DNA from: Crossaster papposus | Taxonomy: Eukaryota > Echinodermata > Asteroidea > Velatida > Solasteridae | Length of the DNA stretch: 64,000 nt | NCBI GenBank assembly: GCA_037893245.1 | Contig: JBAIAA010000074.1 | Coordinates: forward strand, 434,001-498,000 | Direction of reading: 5' to 3' | Shown: in pieces, positions 4,771 to 43,293 of the stretch | Numbering within the stretch: the first letter of the stretch is position 1 | How the letters are laid out: each line of letters begins with the position of its first letter | Position numbers and translations under genes: made by a program | The notes under the pieces: generated by a model | What the model saw: the letters and a program-made list of their open reading frames with translations, nothing else | Databases searched by the model: none | What the model was told of the DNA's origin: nothing

Positions 4771-5813
4771 TTTAATAAATACCTAGGAGAGTTGAAGGCT
4801 TCTGATTGGCCGAGACTCGATCACGTGCCGGTCATTATATGTAGTAACATCATGGGTTTTCGAAGTCCGTTTTCTAAACCCCGGCTTTGGGCTGCACTGT
4901 GGCCACATTACAGACGTTTTCCTAGTTCCGGATCGCAAAAAATATTCAGGCTGTTTTCGGCAAGTCTAATCCTCGAAATTTAAACGAAATAGATTTAGTA
5001 GTTTACCTTGAGTGATGGAGAAACTACAGTTTTTGTTTCGATATTGATGCTCTTCTTTATTTGAAAATACATACTGTACGACGTCAAATATACCGACATC
5101 CCTTTTTCTAGTTGTGGATCAGCCTTAACCAATTCCCGCGGATCGAGTAAAAAACTGCTTCGTACATAAACATTATCACGCTAGAACCAACCCAAATCAA
5201 GCCTATATTTCTGATAAAGTATTCATTAATTTATATAAATACAGTTTAAAATAAATGTCAAATACTTTAACTTCCAATAAAGTTTTAAAAGAGGACTTGC
5301 AAGGAAATGCTTTGAAATTTTTGTCCGTGTACGTGTGTTTCGCGCGGCAACGAGCCGATAAACTTTGTCCCACCAACGTGGAGGAATAAACTCCATGGTC
5401 CATTAGAACACGTCATATGAAATCGCTTGCGCGCGTGCTGTTGATGCATGTATTTTACGGGCGATCCGGAACTAGGAAAAAATGAACGTTCAGTCTTTGG
5501 CAGATTTGAGACTTTTACTTCGACTTATTTTTACTTATGTATCAAGAAGCTTGTATGTTTCTTTTCAAAATGCACTTCATCTAAACAAATAGTATTGGAG
5601 ACCAAGCCATAACAAGGTAGGTTTTTATTTGAAGCGATCTGGAACTAGAAAAAATCCGGAACTAGGAAAACAACTGTACCACTGCTAAACTACATGAACG
5701 AAGCCAAAATACGAAAACGAAGCTGCGTTTGTAAAACGGCCTAGAAGAAGCCGCGAAGTCGCGAAATTCGGAGTATTTTCACCATTTTTCTCGTTAAAAA
5801 GGTATTTATTAAA
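4771..5813 (+). mobile_element. Hairpin composite family D: MITE core
   Basis: The ends are inverted repeats TTTAATAAATACCT and AGGTATTTATTAAA. Just inside the left end is GATTGGCCGAGACTCGATCACGTG-type sequence at about 4804-4828, a box shared with families C and E. The core directly abuts the hairpin at 5814-5978. The words CCGGAACTAGGAAAA recur inside the right half. No domain was recognised in the 106-codon ORF at 4663-4983. Confidence 0.75.
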
Positions 5814-5978
5814 GGTAATAACAGTGCGAGAACCCGGTTATTACTGCGTGGTAATGACCGGGTTGGGGGATGACCGCTGGTAATGGACCTCGCCTTCGGC
5901 TCGATCCATTACCAGCGGTCATCCCCCAACCTGGTCATTACCACGCAGTAACAACCGGGTTCTCGCACTGTTATTACC
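5814..5978. repeat. 165-bp near-perfect hairpin of family D
   Basis: The left arm GGTAATAACAGTGCGAGAAC pairs with GTTCTCGCACTGTTATTACC over about 75 bp. The tip contains CTCGCCTTCGGCTCG. Length and tip match the family C hairpins at 31718-31882 and 41492-41656, although the arm sequences differ. Confidence 0.9.
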
Positions 5979-7108
5979 TATGTAGCGACTGTTACAGTGT
6001 TTGACAGAATCTGACATTGTTAAAGCATTCAACACAAACCAAAAATATACAAAACAGAGTATAATGTAAGTTGTTGACCAAGTATAGGCTCGTGTGTATA
6101 CTACAGATTTTCAAGAATTGGTTGCAATTCTGAATTCGTAACCCAGGTAGGTAATCGTTTATTAAATCCTTTCTCAAATCCCGGCCTGGAGCACCTTACG
6201 ACCAAATTAAAAACATTGAAGTGGTAATAAATTGATTTCAAAACTCAAGCCCCCCCCCCCCCCCTTTCAATCCAATGAATCTACTCTTTATGCATTTTTA
6301 AGACCTGGAAATTGTTTTACCTTAAGTTCTTGTAACGAGATCAAGGAGCGTAATAGATTATTGCTCGTTTGCGAGTTACACGCGGCGTCCCTTAGTCGGG
6401 TCAACCATGCAGGAATAAGAATGGGTCAACCGCCCAGCTTTTCGCCAGACTCTTTTCCTTTCTTTAACCTAGATATACCAGGCGCGCGCCGGCGAGGTAT
6501 ATGATCGATCACATTCGACGGGGCCACCGCGTTCAATCCTATTACGATTTATTAAATTGCCCCCGAGACATTAAGATAGATATGCAGATTGTGTAACGGG
6601 AGACATTTTTATGGCCGATTTAGAGTTTGAGGGTCTCTTGGTGGAGGGAGAAAAACCACTTCAATCCATATGATTACCTGTACATTTGTACTGTCCAGGG
6701 CAATACTTCGTACGGAATCGGATATGGCAAAGACGGATATAAAGGACGTCAACACAAATTGAACTTTTTTACCAATTCAAATTTGATGTAAATTTTCAAT
6801 TGATATACAGTGAATCAGATCAGTCTCTAGCCAGACCGCATACAAAAATAGCTCAGATGTCGTTTAAATTGTTTGACTTGTTATTAAAGAAATTGTTTTA
6901 GACATTATTTGGAATCGGTCCAAATAAAGTATTCGTAATTGTCTAAAATGACACAATTAGGAACACTTTTAAATTAATAAAGTTTAGAAAAGCTTTTCGT
7001 TAAAAAAATCATTTCAGGTGATCACAACTCAAAGTCATGTAAAAGGTCAAGCATGTTGTGTTTATTTGTAATTACTTACCTACTCAAAGTTGCCCCGGAG
7101 ATGGCTTG
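5979..7108. other. No gene recognised; poly-C run at 6250-6265
   Basis: Contains a homopolymer C tract and a 90-codon ORF (6232-6504) that starts just upstream of it; I do not regard this ORF as a gene. No repeat copy recognised. Confidence 0.4.
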
Positions 7109-7112
7109 TTAA

Positions 7113-7828
7113 AGATGGACTACAACGGAATAATGATAAAGGCTGTGTTGCTGTTTTTTGTTCGAGAAATGTATAATGATTACTAATATATCATTAGTAT
7201 TCAATAAATCTTGTTCCTTCATGCAAAAAAACAACAAAATTGATCGGCGTTCTACGACCCAGAAAAACTCAGTTTCAGCAAAAGCCCTTAACTCATGAAT
7301 AATTCATACTTTGTGTGTGACGTACTACCCATGAAAAACGCATACATATGGTGGCCCTGAAGGGACTCCGCAGATCGCGAATATTGACGTCAAATTTGAT
7401 GTCAATATTCGCGACTTTTGGGGAAAGTCGTGAATATCGACGTCAAATTTGACGTCAATATTCGCGACTTTTTTGGAAAGTCGTGAATATTGACGTCAAA
7501 TTTGACGTCGATATTCGCGATCTGCGGAGTCCCTTCAGGGCCACCATGTATGCGTTTTCATGGGTAGTACGTCATCACTTTTCGCTGGTTTACAAGTCCG
7601 CTGGTACTATATCGTGGATTTCATTGTGGTTTTCAGTGGATCTTTGCCGGGAACCAGTACAGGGCGGGAAATTTCAAAATCGAAGAATCGAGGTCTAATT
7701 TTGTCGGTCAAATTGCAACAAAATTATTGGGAGAAAAACATGACCGTAACAATAAAGTGTTACCTGAACACAACATAAACAAGGTCCGATAATAAATTTA
7801 ATGTGTGAGTTTTCGTTGTAGTCCATCT
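7113..7828. mobile_element. Foldback DNA element flanked by TTAA
   Basis: The terminal inverted repeats are AGATGGACTACAACGGAA and, inverted, AGATGGACTACAACGAAA. TTAA flanks both ends (7109-7112 and 7829-7832), the expected duplication for a TTAA-target element (piggyBac or Kolobok type). A second palindrome occupies the middle. No transposase is visible. Confidence 0.8.
7319..7574. repeat. Inner palindrome with CRE-like TGACGTCA array
   Basis: TGACGTACTACCCATG at the left end is matched inverted at the right. Between them, three tandem copies of a unit of about 45 bp read GTGAATATTGACGTC...GACGTCAATATTCGCGAC. Several carry the exact palindrome TGACGTCA, the bZIP/CREB consensus. Whether it is bound is unknown. 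Confidence 0.8.
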
Positions 7829-8261
7829 TTAAGCAACGCACCCTTTCTATTTAACGTCTTGCTCTACGGTTGTAAACACTTGAAGACACACGACACACGC
7901 CGACGTGAAGACTGAGGAATTTAAAGAAAAGAAAAGGAAGCGCATCTTTCGATGTCATCGTCATCAGAACTCAGAGGGAACCTAGAAATAGACATATACC
8001 ATAATTATGGTTATCACTTACAAAATCGCTACGAAATACCAAAACTGACTTTCCGTTGCACTATGCATTCCCCTTTTTTGGTGAAATGCATTTTTGGTGA
8101 AATTACACAGAAAATTAAAAAAATTATGTTGGCCAAGGTTGTTATGTAATATTTGGGTAGTCTTGGGTAGGCCTATGCAGCATGTAATACATAGAGTTGG
8201 ATTATAATAATCCACAAAAAATTATTTACCGAAGTTCTGATGGCTAGTACATTATGAAGCA

Positions 8262-8370
8262 AGATATGGCAAAGGACCCCCCCCCCCCCCCCCCCCGGAC
8301 CCTCCCTTGTATGTTTGTCATTGTGTTCCCGGAATCTCAGGAGTTCTTTTCAGATATCTAGGGTGTGTGT
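8262..8370 (+). repeat. Poly-C and flanking repeat, left part
   Basis: A C run is followed by TGTGTTCCCGGAATCTCAGGA, which recurs at 9680-9703 after another C-rich tract. The downstream parts also match (TATAGGGACAAGGGG at 8767-8781 against TATAGGGATAAGAGG at 9762-9776), so the family A copy at 8375-8726 appears to interrupt an older repeat. Confidence 0.6.
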
Positions 8371-8374
8371 TTAA

Positions 8375-8726
8375 AGGTAGGATACACAATTTGCAGATAT
8401 CGAAAACATTTACTAACGAATTATTAAGAAATTTCATACTTATTTGAAAGTAAATAATGATTGTAGGCATCCAGCAAAGTGATTGCGCTAGATATCCTAT
8501 AATTGTTCCCAGACGGCGATCGCGAAAAAACACTACAGCATAAGAACCACTGCACAACGCCGGTTGAAAAACGAACGCCGTTTTTCTTGCTTTTCTCGGC
8601 ATCCATAATCGTAAAACTTCGGACAGGTCAGTTAAACGATATTTACTATAAAATACAACCCCCCCCCAAAAAAAAAATCCACCGATTCATGATAATTCAA
8701 GCAATTACCAATGGTGTATCCTACTT
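8375..8726 (+). mobile_element. Family A MITE, complete (A2)
   Basis: 352 bp with terminal inverted repeats AGGTAGGATACACAATTTG and, inverted, AAGTAGGATACACCATTGG. Exact TTAA flanks at 8371-8374 and 8727-8730. This copy defines the family: subterminal GCAGATATCGAAAA on the left and TTCAAGCAATTACC on the right. Non-coding. It sits inside a poly-C-associated repeat. Confidence 0.9.
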
Positions 8727-9076
8727 TTAAGGTACATGTATTTATAGTCTGGAGCGTGTCTAGGGTATAGGGACAAGGGGTTTCCCTTCTGCCATAAATC
8801 GTGTTGGGTATAGACAAGTTCGTCATTATGTAAAAAGTAGGGTAGGCCTAATTAGGATGTGAAACTAATTATTTTAAAATTGATTTTACAATAAAACGAA
8901 ATAAACAAAATTGCAGTTGTCCTGGAATGTTTTTTTTGCAACTTCGCCGAAAAACATGGAATTATAACACAAAAATGTACACCCAAATTATTATTTTTTT
9001 TTTTTATAGATCTATACAGTGCAGAGGCATAGACGTTCGCACAAAATCACGTTTTTAAAATGTATTGTGTTTTCTA

Positions 9077-9386
9077 AGGGTTGTATGTTAGAGTAAATAT
9101 CGTTTAACTAACCTGTCCGAAGTTTTACAATCATTGGATGTCGAGAAAAGTAAGAAAAACGGCGTTCGTTTTCAACCGGCGTCGGGCAGTTGTTCTTATG
9201 TTATCGCCGTTTGGCGATCGTGAATTTTGTTCATAAAATTCATTTTTTTCGGAACAGTTATAAGATATCTAGCGCAATCATTTTGCTGGATGCCTACAAT
9301 CATTATTTACCGTTCGAATAAGTAAGATAATTCTTGATAATTCGGTACTAAAATTGTTCGATATCTGCAAATGGTGTATCCTACCT
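9077..9386 (-). mobile_element. Family A MITE, one end missing (A3)
   Basis: Inverted copy of 8375-8726. The end ATGGTGTATCCTACCT is intact and followed by TTAA (9387-9390). The opposite terminal repeat is missing beyond GGGTTGTAT. Confidence 0.85.
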
Positions 9387-9557
9387 TTAATTCAATGGAA
9401 TTTGACATAGGATGATTGACCGACTAAATTCCAGGTCTTGGTCGACATAAACACAACGCGTGTTGATTCTTCTAATTCCCAAGCTTTCAATAACAAAAGT
9501 GGCAACACGCTTCTAGTAGTAGTAGTGACATATGAAACACGAATGTGGCAGAGAAAC

Positions 9558-9663
9558 CACCCCCCCCCCCCCTCCCCCCCCCCTCCCCCCCCCCTCCCCC
9601 CCCCCCCCCCCTCCCCCCCCCCCCCCTCCCCCCCCCCCCCCCCCCCTCCCCCCCCCCCCCCCT
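9558..9663 (+). repeat. C-rich low-complexity tract
   Basis: About 105 bp of C runs broken only by single T. It produces artificial poly-proline and poly-glycine ORFs on the two strands. The following TGTGTTCCCGGAATCTCAGGA is shared with 8325-8345. Confidence 0.95.
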
Positions 9664-9739
9664 CTTTTGTGTTGACCACTGTGTTCCCGGAATCTCAGGA
9701 ATTCCTTTTAGGTTTCAAGGGGGGATGGGTTAGGTTACA

Positions 9740-10370
9740 ATAGTGTTGAGTGCGTATAAAGTATAGGGATAAGAGGGGGGTACCCCTCTGCCACATATCG
9801 TGCTGGGTATAAGTAGTGCAGGTGATGTTGTCACAACCACGACACCACGATTCGTGACGTGAATTGGACATTTCACGTGAAGAGACAAAAATGTGGGACA
9901 AGCACTTATTGAAGTGGTACGCAAAGGCCCACTTTCAAAGTGCACTCACTTGCAGAGCCACCAATCCAGGGAAATGTCGCAGGTCACACACCGACGCGCC
10001 GGGTTAAATTTGGCCGGCGTGCCAGTTATTTTTTCCAAACGACATTTGATCGAATGGATAAATTCTTCAGAGCTAGCCTTCTTCAATACAATACGTCAAG
10101 AAGAATGGACGAGGCAAAGCCGAGTCTATTGTTGCAAGAATCTACAGTTCCGAGTCTATTCTCCGACTTAATCTATGTTGTGTTAACAACAAAGGTTTGT
10201 TCAAATAAGATTCCTGGCTTACCGCAATCCCCACGTTTGTGAATAAGTGTGGATTGGTAAAGTTACCCATGCGTACAGGCATGTATATTTAGTCGATGTA
10301 CATGTACAACAAATGGAAGGCATCAGTAGTTCGGTTCGTGTCTCCCTGAGGTGGCACCTCGCTCACAACA
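9740..10370. other. No gene recognised
   Basis: Overlapping ORFs of 68-100 codons occur in both strands, but none carries a recognisable domain. GTGGCACCTCGC and similar words do not recur. Confidence 0.4.
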
Positions 10371-10375
10371 AAAAC

Positions 10376-10429
10376 TGTCGATTCGTGACGAATCTACAGC
10401 AAACTGTAGATTCGTCACGAATCGACAGT
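10376..10429. repeat. Perfect 25-bp-arm hairpin
   Basis: CTGTCGATTCGTGACGAATC continues to CTACAG, then loop CAAA, then the exact inverse. The arm half-repeats a third time at 10434-10445. Arms this exact suggest a recent or gene-converted palindrome. Confidence 0.9.
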
Positions 10430-10445
10430 TTGCTGTAGATTCGTA

Positions 10446-10854
10446 AAAATAATCTACACTTCTAACAATAGATGACGTCACAGAAATAGATTAATTTTAA
10501 TAAATACGTAGACGCATATAATTATTACAGTCGGGCGCAGTCTTCAGAAACGTGCTGTAACTCTCTTGGTAAAAGAAATATTCATGGGATGTGACACTCC
10601 ATTTCGAAACTAAATTACCTGATATTGCGTCTTCAAAAGAAAAGGGTTTAGCCTTATTAGTAAATGAGATTATAAGAACAAATATGAACTATTTCCAGAA
10701 ATATAGGAGTGGAAACATTGCTGTTATTGTCGCGAGTTTACGGTTTTTTGCCAGAAAATATAATAATTATGACGGCATAATAAATTGAATAAGTTTTATC
10801 CAGACGTTTTCAAGCAATATCATTATTTTTGTTTTGGAAAACAAAAACAAGCGG
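10446..10854. other. No gene recognised
   Basis: AT-rich sequence with a 65-codon ORF at 10591-10788 of no recognisable family. Confidence 0.4.
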
Positions 10855-10858
10855 TTAA

Positions 10859-11241: not shown

Positions 11242-11249
11242 TTAACCAG

Positions 11250-13445: not shown

Positions 13446-13806
13446 TTATAACACCTCACTCACAGATTCTGTGTCTTGATTGGCCGAGAGCGCGGCACGT
13501 GTCACTTGCTATTTTTACTATTTTGTACCATGGAGAAATAAGACTATCCAAAAAGACTATACCACGCAAAAAGGACTATAATGCGCATAGCAACACACGA
13601 ATATGCGCATAGCAACGAAAGCGTGACTGAAACCCAGACGTGTGTTTCGGTGCATTGCGTAAACATTGCTCTATCACCTTCGCACCCGTTCATCAAGGCA
13701 ACAAAGTACACGTATGATCGAGAGACGTATAATTCGGAGATTTTTTGTCATTACTATACTTTCAGGAAGCTTAAATTGTGCAGAATATGTGAGTGAGGTG
13801 TTATAA
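13446..13806 (+). mobile_element. Hairpin composite family E: MITE core (E1)
   Basis: Terminal inverted repeats TTATAACACCTCACTCAC and GTGAGTGAGGTGTTATAA are exact. Near the left end lies GATTGGCCGAGAGCGCGGCA followed by CGTG, the box shared with families C and D. It directly abuts the hairpin at 13809-13971. Confidence 0.8.
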
Positions 13807-13808
13807 AA

Positions 13809-13971
13809 CAAATATTGACTGCTTTATTTCGCGGTATAGTAAAACTAGCCTCCCTCGGTGATCCATGGAGCATTCTATTTTCCCTCGGCTTCGCCTCGGG
13901 AAAATAGAATGCTCCATGGATCACCTCGGGAGGATAGTTTTACTATACCACTCAAAGCAGTCAATATTTGT
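13809..13971. repeat. 163-bp hairpin of family E
   Basis: Left arm CAAATATTGACTGCTT...GGTATAGTAAAACTA pairs with the right arm TAGTTTTACTATACC...AAGCAGTCAATATTTG. The tip is CTCGGCTTCGCCTCG. Its length is close to the family C and D hairpins. Confidence 0.9.
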
Positions 13972-15188
13972 ATACTAGCACTCTGTGAACCGAATGCACA
14001 GAAAACGGAGCAACTAAATTCGATCAGGGACCTACGTAACTACTAGATCATGGGACGAAGTCACAAAATCCTTTCAGAAAGTCATTTTCGTGATTCCCAA
14101 CTTGGTAGTTGATAAAACTAGTACATATTTTTCAGTACTCACTCATTTTTTTGATACGGAACATAACATTGCAAAGTGACATTAAAATAAATAGATTCAC
14201 ATGAAAATTGAGAATTAACAAATAAATGTTCACAATTTGTGGCCATATACCCACTTTTTGGTTGCTGTGGTCCACGAGTGATAGTGCCCGCTCCAACTCT
14301 ACAGTTTAATTTTACACTGGATCTGTAACCTTACTGGGAATACTGAATTGTTTATTGTGATTAAAGTCCTTAGTCAATGTTGCAATAACATTTGAAATGA
14401 CAAAAATGGTGAATTGTATGCACAATAATAATTACATTTAAATTTGTGTAAATGCCTATTTTAGTACAATATTTTCTCAAAAAGAGGGATATTCATACTC
14501 CATAATAGATGTTTCAGTGTGTAGTTCTACTTCTAATAAGTTTCAACTAGGTTACACCATGGAGGTAGGGTTACACTTTTCAATTATAAAGACCCTTGAA
14601 AATAGTTGCCCTGTGGAACAGGGATAGTGGAAGTTAACTATATGAAAACGGCCAAAGCAGCTAGCTGCATGATTAACAGCCGATTTTGTGCTTAACACAG
14701 CCATGCTTAAGCAACAGCATGTTTTTTTGCTACAGTTTGGTGGGTCAAAACCAATGTCATTTTATGCACGTAGGTGCTCAAATAACTGTTGCAGCGAAGA
14801 TCAGACCACCACGTTCCGAACCAGTCGAATCACATACAATTCTTTTTATTAATGTTTCTAAGGTACCGTGTGTTCAAGGCTTGTTAGGCAAATGGTGATT
14901 ATTCCACTATTGTGTGTGGCTACAAATCTCATTTTTTTCATGTCAATTGTTCCTTCCCGTCGAGATAAAATAACCACGCAAAAAGCTCCTGGGGTATTTT
15001 AAAAAGCAACCCCCCCCCCCCCCCCCCACCCCCAACCCCGACCTTGAGCCGCATTTGCACCCCGCATAAATTCGTCGCGTTCCGTTTCTAATGGTCACAC
15101 TCCTTCGTATACAATAAATCTGAACACTTTTAAACCAAAAATAATATAATCCCGATTTTGTAAACAACTGTGTGCATGACGGGGTCTA
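13972..15188. other. No gene recognised; poly-C at 15010-15027
   Basis: Contains AAGCA-rich sequence near 14617-14720 and a homopolymer C run. No supported exon was seen. Confidence 0.4.
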
Positions 15189-15400
15189 AGGTAGGATACA
15201 CCATTGGTAATTGCTTGAATTATTATAAATAGGTGGATTTCGGGGGTTGTATTTCTTAGTAAATATAGTTTAACTGACCTGTCTGAAGTTTTACAATCAT
15301 GGATGCTGAGAAAAGCAAGAAAAACGGCGTTCGTTTGTAACCGGAGTCAGGCAGTGGTTCTTGTTCTGTTTTCGCGCTGTTTCGTTCTTGTTTTAAACCA
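15189..15400 (-). mobile_element. Family A MITE cut by minisatellite (A4)
   Basis: The terminal repeat AGGTAGGATACACCATTGG and about 200 bp of body are present. The element then stops where the 13-bp minisatellite starts, so the array has replaced or expanded within the rest. Confidence 0.85.
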
Positions 15401-16016
15401 GCAGTAGACCTGCGCAGTAGACCTGCGCAGTAGACCTGCGCAGTAGACCTGCGCAGTAGACCTGCGCAGTAGACCTGCGCAGTAGACCTGCGCAGTAGAC
15501 CTGCGCAGTAGACCTGCGCAGTAGACCTGCGCAGTAGACCTGCGCAGTAGACCTGCGCAGTAGACCTGCGCAGTAGACCTGCGCAGTAGACCTGCGCAGT
15601 AGACCTGCGCAGTAGACCTGCGCAGTAGACCTGCGCAGTAGACCTGCGCAGTAGACCTGCGCAGTAGACCTGCGCAGTAGACCTGCGCAGTAGACCTGCG
15701 CAGTAGACCTGCGCAGTAGACCTGCGCAGTAGACCTGCGCAGTAGACCTGCGCAGTAGACCTGCGCAGTAGACCTGCGCAGTAGACCTGCGCAGTAGACC
15801 TGCGCAGTAGACCTGCGCAGTAGACCTGCGCAGTAGACCTGCGCAGTAGACCTGCGCAGTAGACCTGCGCAGTAGACCTGCGCAGTAGACCTGCGCAGTA
15901 GACCTGCGCAGTAGACCTGCGCAGTAGACCTGCGCAGTAGACCTGCGCAGTAGACCTGCGCAGTAGACCTGCGCAGTAGACCTGCGCAGTAGACCTGCGC
16001 AGTAGACCTTAGACCT
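15401..16016. repeat. 13-bp minisatellite, about 47 units
   Basis: Unit GCAGTAGACCTGC, almost without substitutions over 616 bp. The unit is partly self-complementary (GCAG...CTGC). Because 13 is not a multiple of 3, the period at protein level is 39 bp, giving an artefactual ORF of 222 codons at 15393-16061. Confidence 0.98.
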
Positions 16017-16090
16017 GCAAAGCCAATACCAAAAAAAGCGAACCCTTAATAGTAAATACATTGCAGAAATGTAATAATCCTGTCATGTCT

Positions 16091-17395: not shown

Positions 17396-19968
17396 CTTGT
17401 GGGAAAGAATAAAGCCAAAAACATGAGAGCTCTACTAAAAACCTATGTGACCTGTCACCACGAAATGAGCTTAAAGTCGGAAATTGCCATTTTGTAGAAC
17501 AGAGGGCAAAAGCCAAAACTTATAAGAGTGTTTTTTGGGTTGTTTTTTTCCTTCTTGCGTATGCTCTGCAGCAACTCTTTGTCACACCTGCAGCTCGGTG
17601 GCGGCTAGCCATGCCCTCGTGTCGTCGTCCAGGGTAATGATGACTTTTTTGCCGTTAGGTGGCCGGTGTTGTGGGCAGGACTCGATGTTTGTTCGAGTTT
17701 GGTCCACAGTTTGTTCTGGGTGGTTGCAGTCACATGCGGCAGTTTCTTTTTATTTATGTGAACTTAATCTGTAAGTCCTATTTTACCTTTCCCCAATTTT
17801 GTTCTTCAGTCAAACATCTTTAAAACCTATTTCATCCCAATTGTATTATGTCGTCACATATTTACTGCAACACAACTGTAAGATTTTAAATGCCTTTTTT
17901 TCAAGATTAAGTTTTACCACTTAAAGTACGTTGGTAGTCTATTTTTCCATTACTAAACTTAGTACCCCATATTGTTGTATACCATTGGAAAGCTCTTGTT
18001 CTGCATATTCAAAAGTATAGATATCTCAATTCTTAAAAAGTCTTCCAGTATAAGAGAACAAAAAAATCCACGTTCAGCTTTTTGAACTCACAAAAGTAGA
18101 TGATTATGCATGTTGACTATCTGCAGATTAATTTTGTGCAAAGAAAGCAGGGTTTTTGGAAGGATGGGGAGGGTTCCCAGTAAATCATGCTAGGGGCTAG
18201 GGTTAATATCTTCAAACGTTTTTGGCATTTGGCATACTCTACTTTTAATAATTTTTCCAATCAAAACTAAAATATTGACCATTTTTTTCACCAGAAAGAA
18301 TTATTCGTAACCAGTTCGCGCTGGAGGACGTATACACACAAAAATCTTTTCCAAGATTCAAAACGGGTGACGCATAGACACGTCACGAGCAAGGTGGGAA
18401 ATGTCTGTGAGCTGCGAGCAAGGCCGGAAATGCGCGAGTGTGCTTCCCGGTACCATCGGCCTGAACTCCCGTATAATAGAGCAAGGCCATTTTCTAAACC
18501 CCAGCTTCGTCTTCATCTTTGGATTCGTTTATGCAATTTGGCAAGGGTGACGGAGCAAAAACGAAGCCTAAGCTGGGGTTTCAAAAACCACCCTTTTTTG
18601 GAGGCGGAGTGTTCGTGGGGGCAGAGTGTTCGTGGGGGCAGAGTGTTCGTGGGGGCAGAGTGCTCGTGGGGGCAGAGTGCTCGTGGGGGCGGAGTGCTCG
18701 TAGGGGCGGAAATGCGTGAGTGTGCTTCCCGGTGCCATCGGCCTGAACCACGTATAATAGAGCAAGGCCATTTTCTGAACCCCGCATCAGATCAAGTTTC
18801 GTTAAAAATTTTCTCGCGCCTCGGCTCTGTGATGTTGAAAATAATCCCGGCGCGAACTGGTTAATAAATTCTGCAATCAAAACTAAAGTACTGACCATCT
18901 TTTTTTCATTCAAGACCTGTTCCAGCATGGATCCCTGCTCCCCCTGCCTGGGCCGGTTTGCTGCTCCTGCAAGCCTGTCTCCTGGTAGCTCAAGGCCTGG
19001 GGTTTTCACCTCGACGCTAAAAGGATCCTGTAGCAGAAAATGTGGAGATTTTGAGAAAATGGTTGATTTCTGTTTTTTTCATAAGAGGAAACAATTAAAT
19101 AGATGTTTGTATGCGTTTGTATTGACCGGCAATCGTGGTCGTCGGACAAAAGAATTGGGAGGCAAACAATGGGTCCACGACTGACACAACGTCCACGATC
19201 TCAACTCGTGTACAAATCCTATGGCGATCATCCAAAAACGTTAGAGTACAAACAAAAGAGGTAAGACGGTCGGACAATGTCCCGTCCACGATTGCCGGTC
19301 CATACATGACTGGGTAAGTTGGGGTGGGGTGAGTTTTACACATGTAGAAAAAAGTCCATGGTATCCATTTGTCTGGCATTGATTTTTGCCAAGACAAGCT
19401 TCGGTTTTATGCAAAACAGGAAAGAAAAACAGAATCTGGATCAATGGGCATTATTTTGTTAATGTTGTTTACCTAAATACTTAACACCCAGAAAGCTCTA
19501 ACATCATGAACAATAACGATAATACCCGACGGTCAATAGAATTAACATAATCTGAAAACTTCGAACATTTTTCAAGAAAAACGTGTGACATTGGCGGCTA
19601 CCGGACCTTATAATTATTCATCCGAAATAGTCAGAATTGTTCAGTCTGGGAACCAGACTAATAAATATAAACCAAACCTCAACTTGACTTGACCTGACCT
19701 GACCTGACCTGACCTGACCTGACCTGACCTGACCCCTTCCCCACCAGCTCCCCCTACCTGGTTAGCCATGGCCTTGCGCCTCTTGTACGTCTCCTTGTAG
19801 GTCTTGTTGCGGTGGTACTTGCACTTCCAGGGCAGCAGCTGGTAGCGGCGCGACTTGTAGGCCGATTTCTCACAGCCCTTGACCATGCACGTCATCTCCA
19901 CCTTAGGGAAAAATTTAATATACAGACATCACGTTTTGTTCAATAATTGTTTACGCAGTGGCTATCGT

Positions 19969-20001: not shown

Positions 20002-21504
20002 TGGGGAGGCTAATTCTTCCAAATAGGCACTTGGGAAGACAAATTAGGGTATGTTTTTAGATAATAGGGAGACAGTGGCACTTAGGGAGACATTTCAATG
20101 TCTCCTTAAGTGTCTAGCTACCCTAAAAAAACAATATTTGGGAGTTATTTTTGTCCAAGAATGACAGATTTTGGTCTAAATAGCATAAATCTCGAAGATC
20201 TTAGAGAAAAGGGTTAGGGTAAACAAGTTAGAACTGTTTTAAGTTTGTGTACTTCTCTATGGGATTGTCTCCCCAAGTGCTCCTTACTCGCAGCTGGTGT
20301 GCTGAATTGCAAAGGACGCGGCTACAACGTGGTCGAGTCGCTGGCACGTAAAGGCGCCTAGGGCAGCCGGCCACATCGACTCATTTATGACTACGGGAGC
20401 ACAGCCTGAGATCGATAGTGTTTGATTTTTCCAGAGGGAGGAAAACTGGAGGACTCAGAAAAAAAACCTCGTGGCACAGGAGAGAACCAACGCACAACTC
20501 TACTCACATATGGTCCGGGCCGGGAATCCAAACCTGGGCCACATTGGTGAGAGGCGAGCGCTTTACGCACAAGCCACCTATGCCACAGTTATGGCAGTTG
20601 ACGATCTGATTCCCCGACTTTATACCCAGCCTGACATCGACAATAATATTTGGATATTGATTTTCAAACCAGACTTTTTGACAGTCGAGTTCCAAAAGTA
20701 AAAAGCTCCAGAGTATTGTCAATGTCCGACTGGGCAAGTTGTCGGAGAGTCAAATTGCAAACAGCCCAACGATAGCCACTGCTGAAAAATTGAATTTTGT
20801 TAAAAAAACAACAACAACTGCCCGATGCCGGTTGAAAACAAATGATTTTTCTCTTGCTTTTTTCTTTGCATTCATGATTGTAAAACTTCGGACAGGTCAG
20901 TTAAACGATATTTACTATAATAATAGTAACCTATTCCTGATAATTCAAGCAATTACCAATGGTGTATCCTACTTTTAACCAGTTCGCGCCGGGATTATTT
21001 CAACATCACCGAGCCGAGGCGCGAGATTATTTTTAACGAAACTCAATCCGAGGCGGGTTCAGGCCGATGGTACCGGGAAGCACACCCACGCATTTCCGGC
21101 CTTGCTCGTGACTTGTTTATGCGTCATCCGTTTTGAATCTGGGGAATACTTTGCGTGTATACAATGTACGTCCTCCTGCGCAAACTGGGTAATTAAGACA
21201 AAATCCAGAAACGTTTCTAATGCTAAAATTACTACCTAAATTTCAAGGTAAGCTTAATATTTGTTTTCCCCATTCTCTGTGATGTTTGTTTACGAAATTT
21301 TTTCCCCACCTTGTCATCTTTGGAACACGTGGATGACGTAGATGATGATGACGACAGCGAGGATGATGATTCAGCCCGCTGATAGGAGCCAGAGTCCTGT
21401 TTGATTAGCATGGGTGATGCCGCGGTCTCTTTCTCCATTGAAGACTTGCCTAATTCTGTCTGGCTGTCCTCTGCGAAACCCTCTTGACCACAACGTGAAG
21501 ACAT
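17261..21504 (-). CDS. RFXAP: RFXAP homologue (regulatory factor X-associated protein), 4 coding exons
   Basis: Joined exons 21504-21310, 19901-19758, 19027-18896 and 17395-17261 encode 201 aa ending in TGA. All three introns are GT-AG and phase 0. In vertebrates RFXAP is a nuclear subunit of the RFX complex with RFX5 and RFXANK. Residues 1-65 are Ser-rich and acidic-leaning. Residues 66-113 hold a Cys/His pattern (C70, C75, C92, H95) with LLPWKCKYHRNKTYKETYKR, matching the conserved PW-C-KHRNK-YK-YK block of RFXAP. Residues 148-156 (LEQVLNEKK) join across the last intron to ALMQSPVVLEFLQKQQQ, the C-terminal RFXANK-binding region, with spacing equal to the vertebrate protein as I remember it. 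It is shorter than human RFXAP (about 270 aa), mainly N-terminally. The start is the first ATG of exon 1; an upstream exon may add sequence. The invertebrate role is presumably general RFX transcription, since MHC class II is a jawed-vertebrate feature. Confidence 0.9.
17930..18065 (+). repeat. Family J fragment in RFXAP intron
   Basis: TATACCATTGGAAAGCTCTT and the following ATATCTCAATT match 58150-58225. No terminal repeats remain. Confidence 0.55.
18311..18860 (+). mobile_element. Family B MITE with internal expansion (B1), intronic
   Basis: Ends CCAGTTCGCGCTGGAGGACG and, inverted, CCAGTTCGCGCCGGGATTAT; TTAA lies at 18861-18864 and a decayed CGTAA on the left. The body carries an internal duplication and the 17-bp array at 18605-18712, so it is about 550 bp instead of 235. 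Its right end is about 35 bp from the donor of the RFXAP third coding exon. Confidence 0.88.
18605..18712 (+). repeat. 17-bp tandem repeat inside family B copy
   Basis: Unit GAGTGTTCGTGGGGGCA, about six copies with C/T and A/G variants. It has no counterpart in the other family B copies. Confidence 0.92.
18896..19027 (-). CDS. RFXAP: RFXAP third coding exon
   Basis: 132 bp between acceptor TTTTCTGCTACAG and donor ATG/GTCAGT. It ends GSMLEQVLNEKKM, the start of the C-terminal conserved block. An earlier in-frame GT after LEQ is less likely, because it would delete VLNEKK, which is conserved in the family. Confidence 0.88.
19121..19303 (-). mobile_element. Family L short TIR element (L3), intronic
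   Basis: Ends GACCGGCAATCGTGG and CCACGATTGCCGGTC are inverted. The interior (GTGTACAAA..., AGTACAAACAAA) resembles 32036-32225 and 62506-62702. It lies in the RFXAP intron between the Cys/His exon and the third coding exon. Confidence 0.65.
19682..19735 (-). repeat. (AGGTC)n pentamer array beside RFXAP splice donor
   Basis: About ten GACCT units on the plus strand. Read on the minus (transcribed) strand they form overlapping AGGTCA half-sites. They begin about 20 bp inside the intron from donor 19757. Confidence 0.95.
19758..19901 (-). CDS. RFXAP: RFXAP Cys/His exon
   Basis: 144 bp between acceptor TTTTTCCCTAAG and donor CAG/GTAGGG. It encodes the diagnostic 48-residue Cys/His and basic segment. 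Base composition is clearly GC-richer than the introns. Reading continues open past the donor into the AGGTC repeat, which is intronic. Confidence 0.92.
19966..20001 (+). repeat. (AAT)n microsatellite
   Basis: About eleven AAT units directly upstream of the family G element. Confidence 0.95.
20027..20280 (+). mobile_element. Family G TIR element (G1), intronic
   Basis: Ends GCACTTGGGAAGACAAATT and, inverted, GCACTTGGGGAGACAATCC. A second copy is at 44954-45210; shared interior words include GGCACTTAGGGAGACATTTC and CTAAATAGCATAAATCTCG. It lies in the first RFXAP intron. Confidence 0.82.
20800..20974 (+). mobile_element. Family A MITE, right half (A5), intronic
   Basis: Right half of the family, ending TACCAATGGTGTATCCTACT. 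The TTAA at 20975-20978 also serves as the left flank of the next family B element, showing TTAA reuse. Confidence 0.85.
20979..21190 (-). mobile_element. Family B MITE (B2), intronic
   Basis: Inverted copy: CCAGTTCGCGCCGGGATTAT at the left, TACGTCCTCCTGCGCAAACT at the right. It begins at the TTAA that ends family A copy A5. It lies about 120 bp from the donor of RFXAP exon 1 at 21310. Confidence 0.85.
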
Positions 21505-31556: not shown

Positions 31557-31717
31557 CACAGTAAATACGCTTTATTGCATGTATTGTGTAAAGCGACAGA
31601 GGCGGAAACATGTCATTTGACACAGACAGAATGGCGAAACACAGACATTTACTTGCGACAATTTCGGAATTTTCAGGGCTTTTTGGGCTGAATTTTACAA
31701 AAAAGGTATTTATGAAT

Positions 31718-31882
31718 GGGAATAAATGTGTGTTCGGTCGGTATTAATCACTCTGTTTAATACCGCTTGGAGTCTGGGTGCTGATAATTACCCTCGCCTT
31801 CGGCTCGGGTAATTATCAGCACCCAGACTCCAAGCGGTATTAAACAGAGTGATTAAAACCGACCGAACACACATTTATTCCC
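31718..31882. repeat. 165-bp hairpin of family C, copy C1
   Basis: GGGAATAAATGTGTGTTCGG pairs with CCGAACACACATTTATTCCC; arms differ at one or two positions. The tip CTCGCCTTCGGCTCG is at 31793-31807. Confidence 0.95.
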
Positions 31883-36795: not shown

Positions 36796-36923
36796 CCCAG
36801 GGAGACGCTGTTATTCTGTAATGCTGCTCTCACACTGTGGCGAATATGCTAGCAAATGTGCTTACGAATGGAAATATTTGACAATCGCTCAAACTTCGCA
36901 ACATTCGCCGTGTCTTCTCTCCT

Positions 36924-37168: not shown

Positions 37169-37780
37169 TGTACACCCTGTGTGTCCCCACTCAAACATAT
37201 CCCAACACACATCCAATGACCAGTCATCACAGCCCTGATCCTGAACACTGAACAATGCATAGACCCATCTGTACCAAGTCAATAAAACTTCAACAAGTTG
37301 AAGTTTGGCAAGTTTACAATTGTTAGGGTGAGTACCAATAATTACTGAACCTGTGTGCACTTGTTGAAGTTTGGTATGTTTTCTAGTGCGAGAGCCTAGG
37401 TGGTTTAGGGTTAAGTTCCTCAAGTTTTTATTCCCTCGATATTTGGTTGTTAGTTTCCTTTGTTCAGTTGTTAGTCAATGTGTCTAGTTGTCTATATATT
37501 TTTGTGTATTGGTCTGTTTCTGGGTCGGTTGTCAGCGTCTAATTTAATTTTTATAATTTTTAAAATAAGTTTTGGAGGATTTCGCAGGATTCAGGTTACA
37601 TGGAGTTTTAACACTTTGGAAACTTGGATTTTGCAGGATTCAGGTATATATATGTGTAAGAAAAGTGGGGTAGGGAGTTACATTCTAGGGTTAATCAATG
37701 ACCACTAGAATTTATTACAAAAAAACCACCAGAGCTGTAATGTTAGGGAACAAATAAATGGGTGGGAGCTTAAGAAAGCC

Positions 37781-38452
37781 TGTTAGGGCCAGGTACATGT
37801 ACCTCTTTCTCTTTCACAGAGGTGCGTTTCTCTGTAACGGATAGCTCATCTCTCTTGCAGAATGTGCTTCTTTTTGTTTCAAGGGCAAGTGCATTTTTCA
37901 CAGGGGTGTATTTTTCATTTATTGCGATTAAGTGGCAGCCTAGACATACTAAGTGGCAGCCGCGACATACTAAAGACATACTAAGTGGCAGCCGCGACAT
38001 ACTAAGTGGCAGCCGCGACATACTAAGTGGCAGCCGCGACATACTAAGTGGCAGCCGCGACATACTAAGTGGCAGCCGCGACATACTAAGTGGCAGCCGC
38101 GACATACTAAGTGGCAGCCGCGACATACTAAGTGGCAGCCGCGACATACCGGGGGTACTAAGTGGCAGCCGCGACATACTAAGTGGCAGCCGCGACATAC
38201 TAAGTGGCAGCCGCGACATACTACAGGTAAGTGGCAGCCGCGACATAATTAACCAGTGGCAAAGAGTTATGAGTCGCGGCCGCGACTTGGTCACAATAAA
38301 TGAAAAATGCACCCCTTAGAAAAATGGACTTGCCTCTTAAAAGAGAGAGACACACGTTCTGAAGGAGAAACGCATCGCTGTGAAGGAGAAACACATCGCT
38401 GCAAAAGAGAAACACATCGCTGTAAAAGAGAAAGAGGTGCCTGATCCTAACA
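37781..38452. mobile_element. Inverted-repeat element hosting a 21-bp minisatellite
   Basis: Outer arms GTTAGGGCCAGG...ACCTCTTTCTCTTTCACAG and the inverse CTGTAAAAGAGAAAGAGGT...CCTGATCCTAAC; inner arms GGGGTGTATTTTTCATTTAT and its inverse at 38297-38316. The minisatellite fills the loop. Confidence 0.75.
37930..38250 (+). repeat. 21-bp minisatellite, about 14 units
   Basis: Unit ACTAAGTGGCAGCCGCGACA followed by T. Units are nearly identical except for short interruptions at 37971-37981, 38148-38156 and 38220-38230. A length multiple of three keeps ORFs open in both strands (165 and 180 codons), which I treat as artefacts. Confidence 0.95.
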
Positions 38453-39879
38453 AACTTCTTTACAAACTGAATTGGCAAAATAAGACAAACCACTAGCAAG
38501 AAGTTACACAAGAAGTTACACCAATACACAATCGGAAATCAGCGAGCAATATCGGGGATATTCCAGATTTTTCTTTGTTCATAGTCTGTATCACAGACTT
38601 TTTCCAGTTTGTCAGGATTTGAACATAGCTGGTTTTCTACATGTAAATTATATCTGAAAAGCAGAATTCAAGCTAAAACAAAAATTCTGGATTTATATCT
38701 CACCACCAATTTGCCACTAAAAGCTAAATTGAATGGGAATAAAAAAGCTACATGTATACATGTATTGTATGTAATTGTATACATGTACATGTATGTAAAA
38801 AGGGAAAATATATAGATGATTGCGCATCGCATAATTGACAACCACGAACCAACAACCATGGTTCTTTTCAGAACCACACATCTCACTAAAGAGTATTACC
38901 GTGGTGTGACTGCAAACTAACGGTACTTACATGTATCTTATTGCCTTTTCGCCATGCAAACCTTTAAATCTGAAATCCCAAACGTATACGTACGTACATG
39001 TACATGTATGTAGTTCATACAGAAACCTGGCATAATGCACAATTGAAATTTAATTCATGCTTACCGTAAATATTATATACCTCAATGTTCAAACAAATGG
39101 AGAACAAAATTCGTAAAATTTGTCTACCTTACAAGTGTATTTGACATGACTTTGTTGTTGGTTTTTTATTGCAATATCTACCGCCAAAATTAAATCACGT
39201 GTTGCGTGTCATTTTGAAGGCCCTCCGGGCTTCACGATTCATAATGAAATTTGCATAAATTATAAGGCAGCTCAATATTAATCCTTTTGTAGGCATCCAG
39301 TTGTGCACGTACACATTTATATACACGTACACAGGACAGTTTAGAAGGAGTGTTTTTTTGTTTGTTTTTTTATTGGTGGTGGTGCCCTCCCTCATTTATT
39401 GCAGTTCTTTAAAGACTTGTCCGCACAACGGAGTCTCGAAAATTAAAGAGCCTTATCGACAGTGCTGTGCGAGTTTTATATGAAAGCAAATCGCAAAGCT
39501 GTGAATTAATCAGTTCCATGGCCGGTTGCCGGTCACCTGAGGGCACCTGCAGGGGTTGTGTGAAGTCTCAGCGGACCTGACAAAAAAAAATCGCTTGGAC
39601 ATACAGTTTAAAACAGCTTCAGTTGTGAAAACCTTGCGATAGAGCTATCTGTCTCGGCGCGGATGTTAAATCGTGTTTTCGTACCGAAGTGACAGGGATT
39701 TTTAATAATTGATGACTGCATAGATGATGTAGGTGAGTATAAGTTCAATGCACGATGTGAGCTTGACATGTTAGGAGTGTGTATTTTTGTTATGTTTTGT
39801 TTTGGTAAGATGGGAACAATTTTTTTTTTTTTACAAAATATACAAAATGGATTAAAAAAATTCACCGTCCTTATAGTTC
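38453..39879. other. No gene recognised
   Basis: Several ACATGTACATGT clusters (38755-38795, 38990-39012) and short ORFs. No supported exon. Confidence 0.4.
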
Positions 39880-40112
39880 CAAATCGTTGTGTCCAAACAT
39901 GCCAACAATTATTGTTGAAAATATGTCAACAGATCTTTTGGGTACCGGTATGTCAAATGCTATTTTGGCTATTTTAAATTCCCGAATGTCATACAACCGG
40001 TGCTTTATGTTAAAGAGTGACGTGTGGCCACTGGGTCGGACGCCGTCTTGAAAAATGGGTACAGTGTACCTGATAGACCGGCGGCTGAAAATCGTGGATC
40101 CTGTGATGTTCG
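39880..40112 (+). repeat. Family P diverged repeat (P2)
   Basis: Shares TGTTGAAAATATGTCAA, CGCCGTCTTGAAAA and GGCTGAAAATCGT in order with the mariner-like element at 57184-57480, but the terminal repeats are lost. Confidence 0.6.
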
Positions 40113-40434
40113 TTATGTAGCGGCGTTTTACCGTAGTACAGTTTGTACATGTACTTGTGTACATTGATATTTCATATTAACCCTAATGTCGTAGCCATTC
40201 ATTTGGGGTTAATTGGGTACCATGTACCGTACATGTACTATGGTACATTTGCATACTACATACATACAGTTCACTAATGGTAGTATCTTGTACTCTTTAG
40301 GTGAGGTTAGGGTTAAAGCAAATTTACAACTATCTATTTTAAAACAAAAATACCGAAGATCAGAAATTTAATGCCAAGCTCTGATGCAATTTGTGGTTTG
40401 TTTTAACCCTAACTCCCTCACCCCTTTTACTAGA

Positions 40435-40800
40435 AAGTATCCTGAATCCGCCACAGTCCACCAATTTTGGTTTGCAAAAACTGCTGGTGTCCTGAGACCA
40501 TCAGACTCCACCAGTATACATTCTGGAGAGATCCTGAGTCCATCATTCTCCACCAGCAAAAGTTTGATGGACTGTGACGGATTCAGGATACCTAGGTGGC
40601 ATACAAAAAATTGCAGTGCGTTTCTCCATAGAGTCCATCACAGTCCATCACCTGAATGTCTGTATCCTGAATCCATCACACTCCTGCAGTAACGCTAGGC
40701 TTAAAATCCTCAATCCATCACACTCCTCCAGTTGGTTCAATATGGAGGTATCCTGAATCCGCTAAAATCCTCCAAAACAGGAAATGGATTTTGATGGACT
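40435..40800. repeat. Cluster of inverted CCTGAATCCRYCACAGTCC repeats
   Basis: GTATCCTGAATCCGCCACAG at 40437 is inverted at 40572-40592, and four further partial copies occur to 40795. This is a foldback-type repeat cluster. Confidence 0.7.
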
Positions 40801-41185
40801 CAGGGTGGTTAGGGTAGGCCTAATTGATGTACAGTACACGTTTTATAGTCACATTGCTTGGGCTATAAGTGTGCTATATATGTGGGCAATTGTTTAATTA
40901 GTGTGATAAAATGTACTGTATATTTGCTTTTGCAGTTATTTCCCAGAGCGGATTTGAGGGTTAGTATTTTGTAACAAATATTATTACATTGTCCTGTTTA
41001 AAATCTTGTTTTCAAACCTGGTACATGGATGCTGGGGGAAAACCAAGGACAAAAATGTTGTCCTTGTAGTCTACATGTAGTTCCCTAACCCTCATTCAGA
41101 CAAACTGTTGCCAATTTGTTGTATTATTATTTCTTTTTACTGCCGTAAATCAATAATTTATCTTTTTGGTGTGTGTTAAACATCT

Positions 41186-41260
41186 GTACATGTCTATAAT
41201 TTATAGACATGTACAAATGTAATTAACTGCATAATTTATAGTATAAATTATGCAGTTAAT
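41186..41260. repeat. Two adjacent palindromes
   Basis: TGTACATGTCTATAA pairs with its inverse to 41216. Next, AATTAACTGCATAATTTATA pairs with its inverse to 41260. Both are essentially perfect and separated by only about 4 bp, a potential double hairpin. Confidence 0.85.
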
Positions 41261-41491
41261 TTTAATTATTCCATCTTGCCAAAATGCACTTTTTCTTATG
41301 CAGCTGGTTCACATGTACTTTTTTTATGAACAAAATAATACAAACCAGCAATAAAAACCAGTTCTAGGCTACAGCCCATCATAAATTTAAACATATTCTT
41401 TTTTTACCTTGTCCTTGTCCTGAACCCTATAAAACTTTTTTTTTTTGCATCAAGTGACAATAGATTGGCATGACAGAATGGTATTTAATAA

Positions 41492-41656
41492 GGGAATAAA
41501 TGTGTGTTCGGTCGGTTTTAATCACTCTGTTTAATACCGCTTGGAGTCTGGGTGCTGATAATTACCCGAGCCGAAGGCGAGGGTAATTATCAGCACCCAG
41601 ACTCCAAGCGGTATTAAACAGAGTGATTAATACCGACCGAACACACATTTATTCCC
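41492..41656. repeat. 165-bp hairpin of family C, copy C2
   Basis: Same as 31718-31882, opposite orientation, tip CGAGCCGAAGGCGAG. Confidence 0.95.
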
Positions 41657-42248
41657 ATTCATAAATACCTTTTTTGTAAAATTCAGCCAAAAAAGCCCCG
41701 AAAATCACGGCAAATTGTCGCAAGTAAATTTCGGTGTTTCGCCATTCTGTGTGTTTTCCCCTATCCATGTTCACGGGCCATTGTCAAATGACATGTTTCC
41801 GCCTCTGTCGCTCTACGTCACAATACATGCAATAAAGCGTATTTACCATTGATCTCCATTATATAGACTGGATAGGCCTCCGCGTCTAAATGGCGTACGC
41901 GCGCGTGTTTTTTTCAAAGGGAAAAGAACGAACGTGACGCGACCGCGTTTGTGCACGACTTATGGAATTTTTTTTAAAAGTGGAAGACTTTTTTTCTTAA
42001 ATTCGTCATATTTGGAGGAAAACAGGATTTTGCACCCGAATGGTTCAAAATAGATAAGAACAATGGTCTGGGCAGCAGTGAAGTGCCCGGAGAAGGATGT
42101 CCATTGAGTTGTCCATGTGCAGGGGCTACTTTTGTTGCCAACTGGTTTTAAACACTTCTAGCCATGTTTTTATCGTCCGTTTAAAACCGGCCACGTGACG
42201 GGCTCTCGACCAATAGGAATGCCTAAACTGTCCCAGGTATTTATGAAT
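41657..42248 (-). mobile_element. Hairpin composite family C: core, copy C2
   Basis: Begins ATTCATAAATACC and ends GGTATTTATGAAT. The conserved box is near the right end (CCACGTGACGGGCTCTCGAC). The middle (about 41850-42130) differs from C1 and C3, including GGATAGGCCTCCGCGTC and ACGCGACCGCG, so part of the core has been replaced. Confidence 0.85.
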
Positions 42249-42704
42249 TGTTGTTTGTTGAATTACATGTACACTCAATTTGGCACGTTCAAGTCGTTAA
42301 AGACCTCTTAACGCTTGGCTTCAGAGAATGTGATATTGTAATTTGTTGGGTGGGGGTAGGCAGGGGGTGGGAGTGGGCAGAAGCAGGCTGTTTTGCCTGC
42401 TTGAGCAATGCCAGAGTGCAGACAGATTGGAAACACTGGGCACATCTCATCTGTGACATTTATTTGTCGCTGATTTGAAAATAAAAGCTAGGGATCTACT
42501 GTGGGATTATGCACGTCATCCCTTCAAAGTGCCAAGAACCTTTAAAAAAAAAAAACCAACAATTCCAATGCGCCGTATTTTTTAACGTTGAGGGCGCTGT
42601 GCAAACGGTATTGGGGATAAAATTAAAAGTGATTAGAAGATGATTCACGTCAGTTTACATATTCTTACAGCTCCAAACATTTACATTTTTCAATATTCCA
42701 TTAA

Positions 42705-42867
42705 GGGAATAAATGTGTGTTCGGTCGGTAATAATCACTCTGTTTAATACCGCTTGGAGTCTGGGTGCTGATAATTACCCGAGCCGAAGGCGAGGGTAAT
42801 TATCAGCACCCAGACTCCAAGCGGTATTAAACAGTGATTAATACCGACCGAACACACATTTATTCCC
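42705..42867. repeat. 163-bp hairpin of family C, copy C3
   Basis: As C2 but lacking AG in one arm (AAACAGTGATT against AAACAGAGTGATT). Confidence 0.95.
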
Positions 42868-43293
42868 ATTCATAAATACCTTTTTTGTAAAATTCAGCCA
42901 TAAAAGCCCCGAAAATCACGGAAAATTGTCGCAAGTAAATTTCGGTGTTTCGCCATTCTGTGCGTGTCAAATGACATGTTTCCGCCTCTGTCGCTCTACA
43001 CAATACATGCAATAAAGCATATTTACTAGGAACCAGACTATTACTGCTATTGGCAACCTCGTTTTCAGCGTGTCAAGCTGTACGCGCCCAACACCACCCT
43101 ACTATTGGAGACGATGTACGGTTAGAAATAAAGTGAGCCCTGGGGACGGGTATAATGCGACATCGCGTGACGTATTTTGCTGCCAGCTAGTTTTAAACAC
43201 TTCCAGCCATGTCTTTATCGTCCGTTTAATACCGGCCACGTGACGGGCTCTCGACCAATAGGAATGCCTAAACTGTCCCAGGTATTTATGAAT
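42868..43293 (-). mobile_element. Hairpin composite family C: core, copy C3
   Basis: 426 bp with ends ATTCATAAATACC and GGTATTTATGAAT. It carries AGTTTTAAACACTTCC, the empty-site equivalent of the B4 insertion in C1. Confidence 0.9.

Follow-up and report, generated by a model that had tools for sequence, protein, structure and literature searches.

A 64,000-nucleotide stretch of the genome of the starfish Crossaster papposus (contig C74:434001-498000, hereafter the window; genome size 1.02 Gb) contains several short elements of a single layout, in which a core bounded by terminal inverted repeats (TIRs) is joined to a long hairpin. Three families (C, D and E) have in common the order 5' TIR, box, core, 3' TIR, followed by a hairpin that is near-perfect and 163-167 bp long (C1, 165 bp; C2, 165; C3, 163; D, 167; E, 164), much as a sequence-only reading of this DNA had described them. 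The hairpin tip, CTCGSCTTCGSCTCG, is found exactly at all five of these window hairpins, with one more place (10110) if one mismatch is allowed, and was absent from 100 shuffles. A scan of the window blind to the tip (ungapped score of at least 28) recovered eight hairpins, five with the tip (C1, C2, C3, D and E) and three without it (2430, 7348 and 10372). The box, TTGGYCGAGA..CACGTG, stands beside the hairpin-distal TIR in all five elements, which also bears out the earlier description. C1 and C3 share most of their length, the nested element of C1 excepted, and C2 has about 110 bp of the 5' end and about 340 bp of the 3' end of the family around a different middle. The families had been called unrelated-looking, which does not stand for C and D, since their 5' ends are 79.7% identical over 69 bp and are, judged by this alignment, homologous. 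The families are thus not all unrelated. A diverged fourth C copy (C4) had no hairpin detected downstream in the window, and the positions of the putative element F were read by eye (Table 1).

Table 1. Hairpin-bearing elements and related fragments in the window (window positions)
Feature	Position	Strand	Ends	Box (TTGG / CACGTG)	Remarks
D	4771..5980	+	5' TIR TTTAATAAATACC at 4771	4806 / 4822	
D hairpin	5813-5979	+	outer end ..ATTACCTA		3' TIR precedes 5813
H fragment	10101..10202	-			one-mismatch tip 10110-10124; 87% over 103 bp to L010
E	13446..13973	+	26-bp TIR TTATAACACCTCACTCACAGATTCTG	13480 / 13496	
E hairpin	13808-13971	+	outer end ..TTTGTAT, then host ACTA		
C1	31067..31884	+	TIR ATTCATAAATACC	31102 / 31118	nested TAACCAGTTCGCGC element in core
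C1 hairpin	31718-31882	+	outer end ..ATTCCCTT		
C2	41490..42248	-	as in C1		middle unrelated to C1 and C3; hairpin 41492-41656
C3	42703..43293	-	as in C1		hairpin 42705-42867; paralogous empty site, no target site duplication
C4	56937..57040	+	diverged C 5' end with box		aligns to C1-C3 at 84-86% (89-94 bp)
F (putative)	63259..63513	+	TIR TTATAACACACCTC; 3' TIR to 63498	63293 / 63309	
F hairpin, damaged	after 63498	+			tip remnant CTTCGGCCTCGGG; left arm not found

These parts recur across the whole genome. The tip was found at 4,187 places (1822+2365), against 2 (0+2) for the reversed control, the C box at 2,150 (816+1334) and the C 3' end at 2,142 (791+1351); the E box and that of a further family, G, were found at 817 and 330, all four with controls of 0. 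Since exact patterns were used for the box, tip and 3'-end counts, these are lower bounds. Among 100 listed exact C boxes, 62 had an exact C 3' end at most 3 kb downstream on the same strand (random expectation, 0.5) and none on the opposite strand. The counts for C leave out three 3' ends on contigs C36-C40 and two tips on contig C18. The distance between box and 3' end was 392-708 bases in 53 of these 62. On contigs C1-C17, an exact tip follows in the same orientation downstream of 18 of 25 E boxes and 4 of 10 G boxes; conversely, 18 of the 41 tips of E, G or H type have an exact E box upstream. Exact C 3' ends on these contigs have an exact tip within 100 bases in 24 of 42 cases, all at 71-78 bases by the strand convention, and the length of the right arm is fixed within family C. 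Tips were also sampled in listed order, taking the first 100 places (contigs C1-C18) and the sequence around 44 of them. With copies identical over 135 bases merged, the set comprised 44 distinct tips (41 from the genome and 3 from the window), of which 8 with weak arms were removed. A box (at most 2 errors) lay within 3 kb upstream in the same orientation in 32 of the remaining 36; the same rule gave 9 of 36 downstream on the same strand, 6 upstream on the opposite strand and 7 downstream on the opposite strand. Core and hairpin travel jointly, in one orientation.

Tip sampling also brought out two more families. Family G (TIR TTGTTATACCACGGCAATAGATT) has the full architecture with a hairpin of 137-145 bp, and family H, with a hairpin of 94 bp, has only the hairpin motifs in common with the others; no box was found in the two H copies compared (372 bp at 89%). 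Because of these two, arm length is not fixed across families, contrary to what had been proposed from the window. The independence of hairpin and core, which the sequence-only reading had set as its own test, is contradicted by the strength of the coupling; what goes the other way is the differing arm length of G and H, together with the boxes lacking an exact tip that are weighed below. Some copies have moved recently, as follows from the near-identity of the best-scored ones: for G, the top 20 by score (40 of 476 candidates scored) have 99-100% identity over 397 bases, and 39 other D copies are 97-99% identical (best 40 of 2,070 candidates). A long G copy (L022) was considered as an autonomous candidate and discarded, its length being that of a nested 1.9 kb insert. 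Head-to-tail tandem copies of E are present in L025 and L026. Further head-to-tail tandems are suggested by G boxes that follow one another on the same strand at distances of 829 and 822 bases, close to the 803 bases of the G copy in L046, and by C boxes 1261 and 1268 apart, only the last of these three having an exact 3' end.

The position of the box is nearly invariant. Among 41 distinct 5' ends, 32 (C, 12 of 16; D, 4 of 6; E, 12 of 15; G, 4 of 4) have TTGG at 34-35 bases from the TIR start, measured in D from TTTAATAAATACC, and CACGTG exactly 16 bases further. Six of the nine deviating ends have a base change in one of the words, which remains at the same place, and three (L018, L020 and L032) have an insertion or deletion. 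The spacing is no different in the putative element F. One word, as ATTGG, is a CCAAT motif in inverted form, and the other, CACGTG, is an E-box; presumably, NF-Y and USF-type factors bind sites like these. The box is probably either the promoter of an autonomous gene since lost or a site within the 5' end for a host factor.

The hairpin tip is strand-coded. Of the six strands folded, five form a GSC stem of 3 bp that closes a 3-base loop, together with a 2x2 internal loop. The stem reads GCC/GGC in 56 and GGC/GCC in 43 of 100 listed places, with one unmatched, i.e., it is a compensated G-C/C-G swap that is matched in 99 of 100, found with a search pattern that allowed unmatched stems. On the strand opposite the one reading TIR, box and core, the loop is GAA and C-GA-G stands on both sides of the internal loop. 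A second CGAG/CGAG step is found inside the arm, at position 34-36 in E (6 of 9), 23 in G (2 of 3) and 35 in H (2 of 2), always on the same strand despite the differing arms; it is absent from the C (13) and D (7) copies sampled. It should be noted that the step at position 4 is implied by the sampling pattern, while the second one is independent of it. Tandem GA steps are stable in DNA. The tip of E and G contains d(GCGAAGC), which is reported to form a mini-hairpin of extraordinary stability whose loop includes a G-A pair (PMC4686876). The two arms are 85-100% identical in most sampled copies, and the mismatches are themselves shared, at position 56 in 9 of 13 C copies, at 60-61 in 8 of 13 and at 62-64 in 9 of 9 E copies. 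Since these asymmetries are common to separate insertions, the arms are inherited as a unit and not re-equalised at each move.

The limits of the mobile unit could be placed by three C insertions (L023, L028 and C3 of the window), compared with paralogous empty sites of the same repeat. The mobile unit extends between ATTCATAAATACC and ..ATTCCCTT and contains the hairpin, so that the border is the outer end of the hairpin and not the 3' TIR, and there is no target site duplication (TSD). Duplication of a TA target was considered and rejected, the base before the C element being T in only 10 of 16 copies. Among 36 flank pairs (15 C, 6 D and 15 E), no duplication of 2, 3, 4, 5, 6 or 8 bases was found at the tested offsets, the strongest signal being that of E with 5 observed against 2.2 expected. 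The hairpin reaches within 2 bp of the 3' end, and the distance from that end to the 3' TIR is about 165 bp in C, D and E. On the host side of the hairpin end, A is found at +1 in 39 of 41 cases, T at +3 in 35 and ANTA in 29, for a background of 2.3% at positions of the sampled DNA. This count excludes matches to the inner arm and inexact ends, includes one E-E tandem junction among the 41, and uses two element letters after the D and E patterns that were chosen once the C pattern was known. Four G ends outside the count have A-A-T, A-A-T, A-T-T and A-T-T at the same place. In C, the ANTA bases are derived from the host, as the empty sites indicate; in D and E, the same attribution rests on the common pattern.

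The explanation that we favor, at a probability of roughly 55%, is that these are non-autonomous transposons with a single-stranded DNA intermediate, moved by an enzyme of the rolling-circle type (Helitron2/Helentron-like, HUH). It is drawn from the asymmetry of the ends, only one of which adds a hairpin to its TIR, the lack of a TSD in the copies tested, the host ANTA, the head-to-tail tandems and the strand-coded hairpin. The enzyme would nick where the end of the hairpin meets ANTA, and the strand that reads target, hairpin, TIR and core would be peeled off; the folded tip may serve as a recognition or stop signal, and the strand, or a circle made from it, would then enter a new ANTA site. 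The earlier proposal that selection acts on a structure, recognised by a single mobilising machinery, gains support from the shared tip with its compensated stem swap, the second mismatch motif in the arms of E, G and H, the near-fixed box spacing, the shared 3' host motif and the lack of a TSD.

Several observations weigh against a rolling-circle origin. The top strand of D lacks the tip stem in its best fold, and a DNA energy model favors the GA-bearing strand by only 0.3-1.5 kcal/mol. For 43 exact C boxes on contigs C1-C17, an exact tip was found in 16, an exact 3' end in 22 and neither in 19; boxes lacking an exact tip amount to 27 of 43 in C, 5 of 25 in E and 5 of 10 in G. Tips are inverted in 2 of 20 cases in E and 1 of 5 in G, although recombination of one inverted arm with the other would be expected to give this. 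A head-to-head arrangement is seen in one pair of G. A TA duplication would also be compatible with two of the three empty sites. The first letters of E are TTA, preceded by A, which makes ATTA, and self-targeting could thus build tandems without rolling circles. Finally, Rep places were not found within 20 kb of a box for G (0 of 58 listed, contigs C1-C195), E (0 of 11) or C (0 of 7) among the listed boxes; for C, the boxes of contigs C18 and C31 were computed and those of C17 and C22 checked by eye. The autonomous relative with the same ends that had been suggested as worth looking for was, accordingly, not found near the boxes.

The genome is by no means poor in Rep genes. A search with PF14214 gave 273 candidates, many of the 150 scored having open frames of more than 3,000 amino acids, and a Rep motif searched as DNA (at most 2 mismatches) gave 201 places, the first 100 of which were listed. 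In six stretches, two had the Helentron form (EFQQRGSPHTH) and four the canonical Helitron form (GLPH). Helentron-type Rep genes are abundant, with open frames of up to 3,470 amino acids (e.g., contig C257:521986-531966); the position of this one comes from frame arithmetic, and it apparently has a minisatellite at its end. Contigs C257 and C272 are identical over 4,276 bases, 3,717 of which are found at 100% on contig C173, which suggests uncollapsed haplotypes or duplicate contigs. One Helentron-type open reading frame (ORF; L049/L050, identical over 4,276 bases and taken as one locus in duplicate contigs) was followed downstream; neither the stretch behind it, nor a homology search with this stretch, nor the 321 bases of L057 beyond the last repeat unit, read by eye, revealed a TIR, a box or a tip, although it was not proved where the element ends. 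Searches with the G and D cores returned, among the copies scored, only more of the same kind. No Rep or DDE transposase was recognised by eye in ORFs of at least 110 amino acids upstream of the sampled tips; a few of these frames resembled parts of retroelements. A tblastn search of two Rep stretches against the sampled DNA matched only Rep loci. Positions 31600-31882 of the window had no match in a phage collection, and the box pattern gave 0 in IMG/VR. No such element is named in the titles or abstract openings returned by searches of the open-licence PMC literature, which leaves room for a published description.

The lack of a Rep gene near any listed G box, when the best-scored G copies are recent, could also mean that the mover belongs to an undescribed group of single-strand transposons with the same hairpin and ANTA logic and a different HUH-type or other nuclease missed by the PF14214 search. 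The ends, target and hairpin size are indeed unlike those of described groups. However, a Helentron partner could be hidden, because scoring covered only 150 of the 273 candidates and an autonomous element with diverged ends would escape the exact box patterns. The search for an enzyme was confined to PF14214 Rep. We consider this unlikely. A more specific proposal, itself rather doubtful, is a separate eukaryotic single-strand group without a known Rep-Hel, in which the giant strand-coded hairpin would mark the initiation end, insertion would occur beside ANTA, and the strand code would consist of the GAA loop with one or two C-GA-G/C-GA-G steps. A hairpin-marked end with insertion at a fixed tetranucleotide is the manner of the bacterial IS91 or IS200/IS605 elements.

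Strand-specific conservation equally fits an RNA of that polarity, and the hairpin might then function as the precursor of small RNAs or an RNA-binding motif, and not in the form of folded DNA. GA pairs in tandem are stable in RNA as well, and the box resembles a promoter; nevertheless, the hairpin lies exactly at the insertion border beside a host motif, which an RNA role does not require, and we find this quite improbable. Very improbable, too, is that these are ordinary cut-and-paste miniature inverted-repeat transposable elements (MITEs) in which the TIR pair is mobile and the hairpin is a second palindromic element, joined once and carried along. The TIRs are clear, and standalone palindromes without the tip and of similar arm length are present in the genome (L038 and L046), but no TSD was found, the three empty sites place the border at the outer hairpin end and not at the 3' TIR, and the tip and CGAG motif are common to families with different arms. 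As for the idea that the arms are kept identical by gene conversion, which the sequence-only reading had suggested, or by foldback synthesis at each transposition, their high identity in most sampled copies would agree with it. The arm asymmetries common to separate insertions show instead that the arms were copied and not re-made, which refutes it for the sampled copies. It could act rarely, and as a general explanation it is scarcely credible. If the rolling-circle reading is true, thousands of copies, some nearly identical and hence recent, make up a natural experiment on the structure read by a eukaryotic single-strand transposase, in which the role of the tip, of the GA steps inside the arms and of the target motif can be put to direct tests. 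It would also mean that a hairpin, TIRs and no TSD can pass for a MITE beside a palindrome.

Other repeats were seen along the way. Standalone near-perfect palindromes of 157-165 bp (L038, 1829-1993; L046, 5070-5226) have TGTGACC near their ends; those of L038, L046, L043 and L026 have no tip and weak TIR scores (7-14), and the nearest boxes are that of an E element 2.7 kb off (L026) and one poor box-like match 1.8 kb off (L046), with none elsewhere. In the window, an element with ends like TAACCAGTTCGCGC..GCGCGAACTGGTTA, the one nested in C1, is also found at 18308-18864 and 20978-21190. Positions 7348-7547 are a palindromic tandem array with units like AAAGTCGCGAATATTGACGTCAAATTTGACGTC, and 8371-9390 a foldback-like element of about 1 kb whose split arms are 86-95% complementary. 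Minisatellites open in several frames, with a C-rich tract, occupy 15256-16082, 46726-47559 and 9560-9660. Six copies of a repeat (4189, 32678 and 50832 on the plus strand; 4632, 33121 and 51277 on the minus strand) have a sharp border at TGTGACCCGCTC. The same letters open L057, at the point where the repeat units that lie downstream of a Helentron-type gene stop; the repeat may represent another terminal sequence or a separate MITE.

The comparison with known systems rests, for the cited papers, on excerpts of each. MITEs and foldback elements are similarly short and non-coding, with TIRs and palindromes; they differ in their TSD of constant length, lacking here, and in that our hairpin is at one end only and outside the TIR pair. 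Replitrons (PMC10741241) would share the HUH-type single-strand logic, if our model is right, yet have no TIRs, short direct terminal repeats and TSDs of 2-8 bp, whereas here there are TIRs and no TSD. The hairpin near the 3' end and the head-to-tail forms recall canonical Helitrons such as Helraiser, in which the 3' hairpin is a termination signal (PMC4778049). Counting against this likeness, the Helraiser hairpin is 19 bp and the present one several times longer, and the canonical target is AT, whereas here we have ANTA, no 5' TC, no 3' CTRR, and TIRs.

Helentrons and HINEs (the DINE-1 group) come closer. They have a subterminal inverted repeat (subTIR) near the 5' end, a second one followed by a palindrome near the 3' end and no TSD, and their non-autonomous copies outnumber Rep genes (PMC4067079). 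The Helentron subTIR of 12-15 bp, which lies within a few nucleotides of the 5' end, corresponds to about 13-15 bp in C and D, those of E (26) and G (about 23) being longer. The lack of a TSD agrees as well (three empty sites, two also TA-compatible, and 36 flank pairs). Against membership, the Helentron 3' subTIR lies 38-60 bp and the palindrome 8-35 bp from the end, whereas here the 3' TIR is about 165 bp away; the palindrome is 5-10 bp long, compared with a hairpin of 137-167 bp; the target is TT or T-rich, compared with ANTA in 29 of 41, with T as the 5' base of C in 10 of 16; and no Rep gene with these ends was found among the Rep places checked here. Because the target and 3' spacing rules fail and none of the Rep places checked lies near a box, we do not claim that these elements are Helentrons. 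The Helitron2 elements FoHeli1 and FoHeli2 of Fusarium (PMC5148889) differ in having short hairpins within the inverted repeat, with hairpin and TIR separate in our case, and in the target letters. They resemble the starfish elements in the asymmetric terminal inverted repeats, the terminal hairpin and the 4-base target on the hairpin side. FoHeli1 follows TNAT, opens with TCAGCC-GAA-GGCTGAC and carries this end again, as an inverted repeat, near its 3' end; its GCC-GAA-GGC core is also the core of the C and D tip, and the order on the opposite strand here, target TANT, hairpin GCC-GAA-GGC and TIR, resembles that of FoHeli1 after TNAT.

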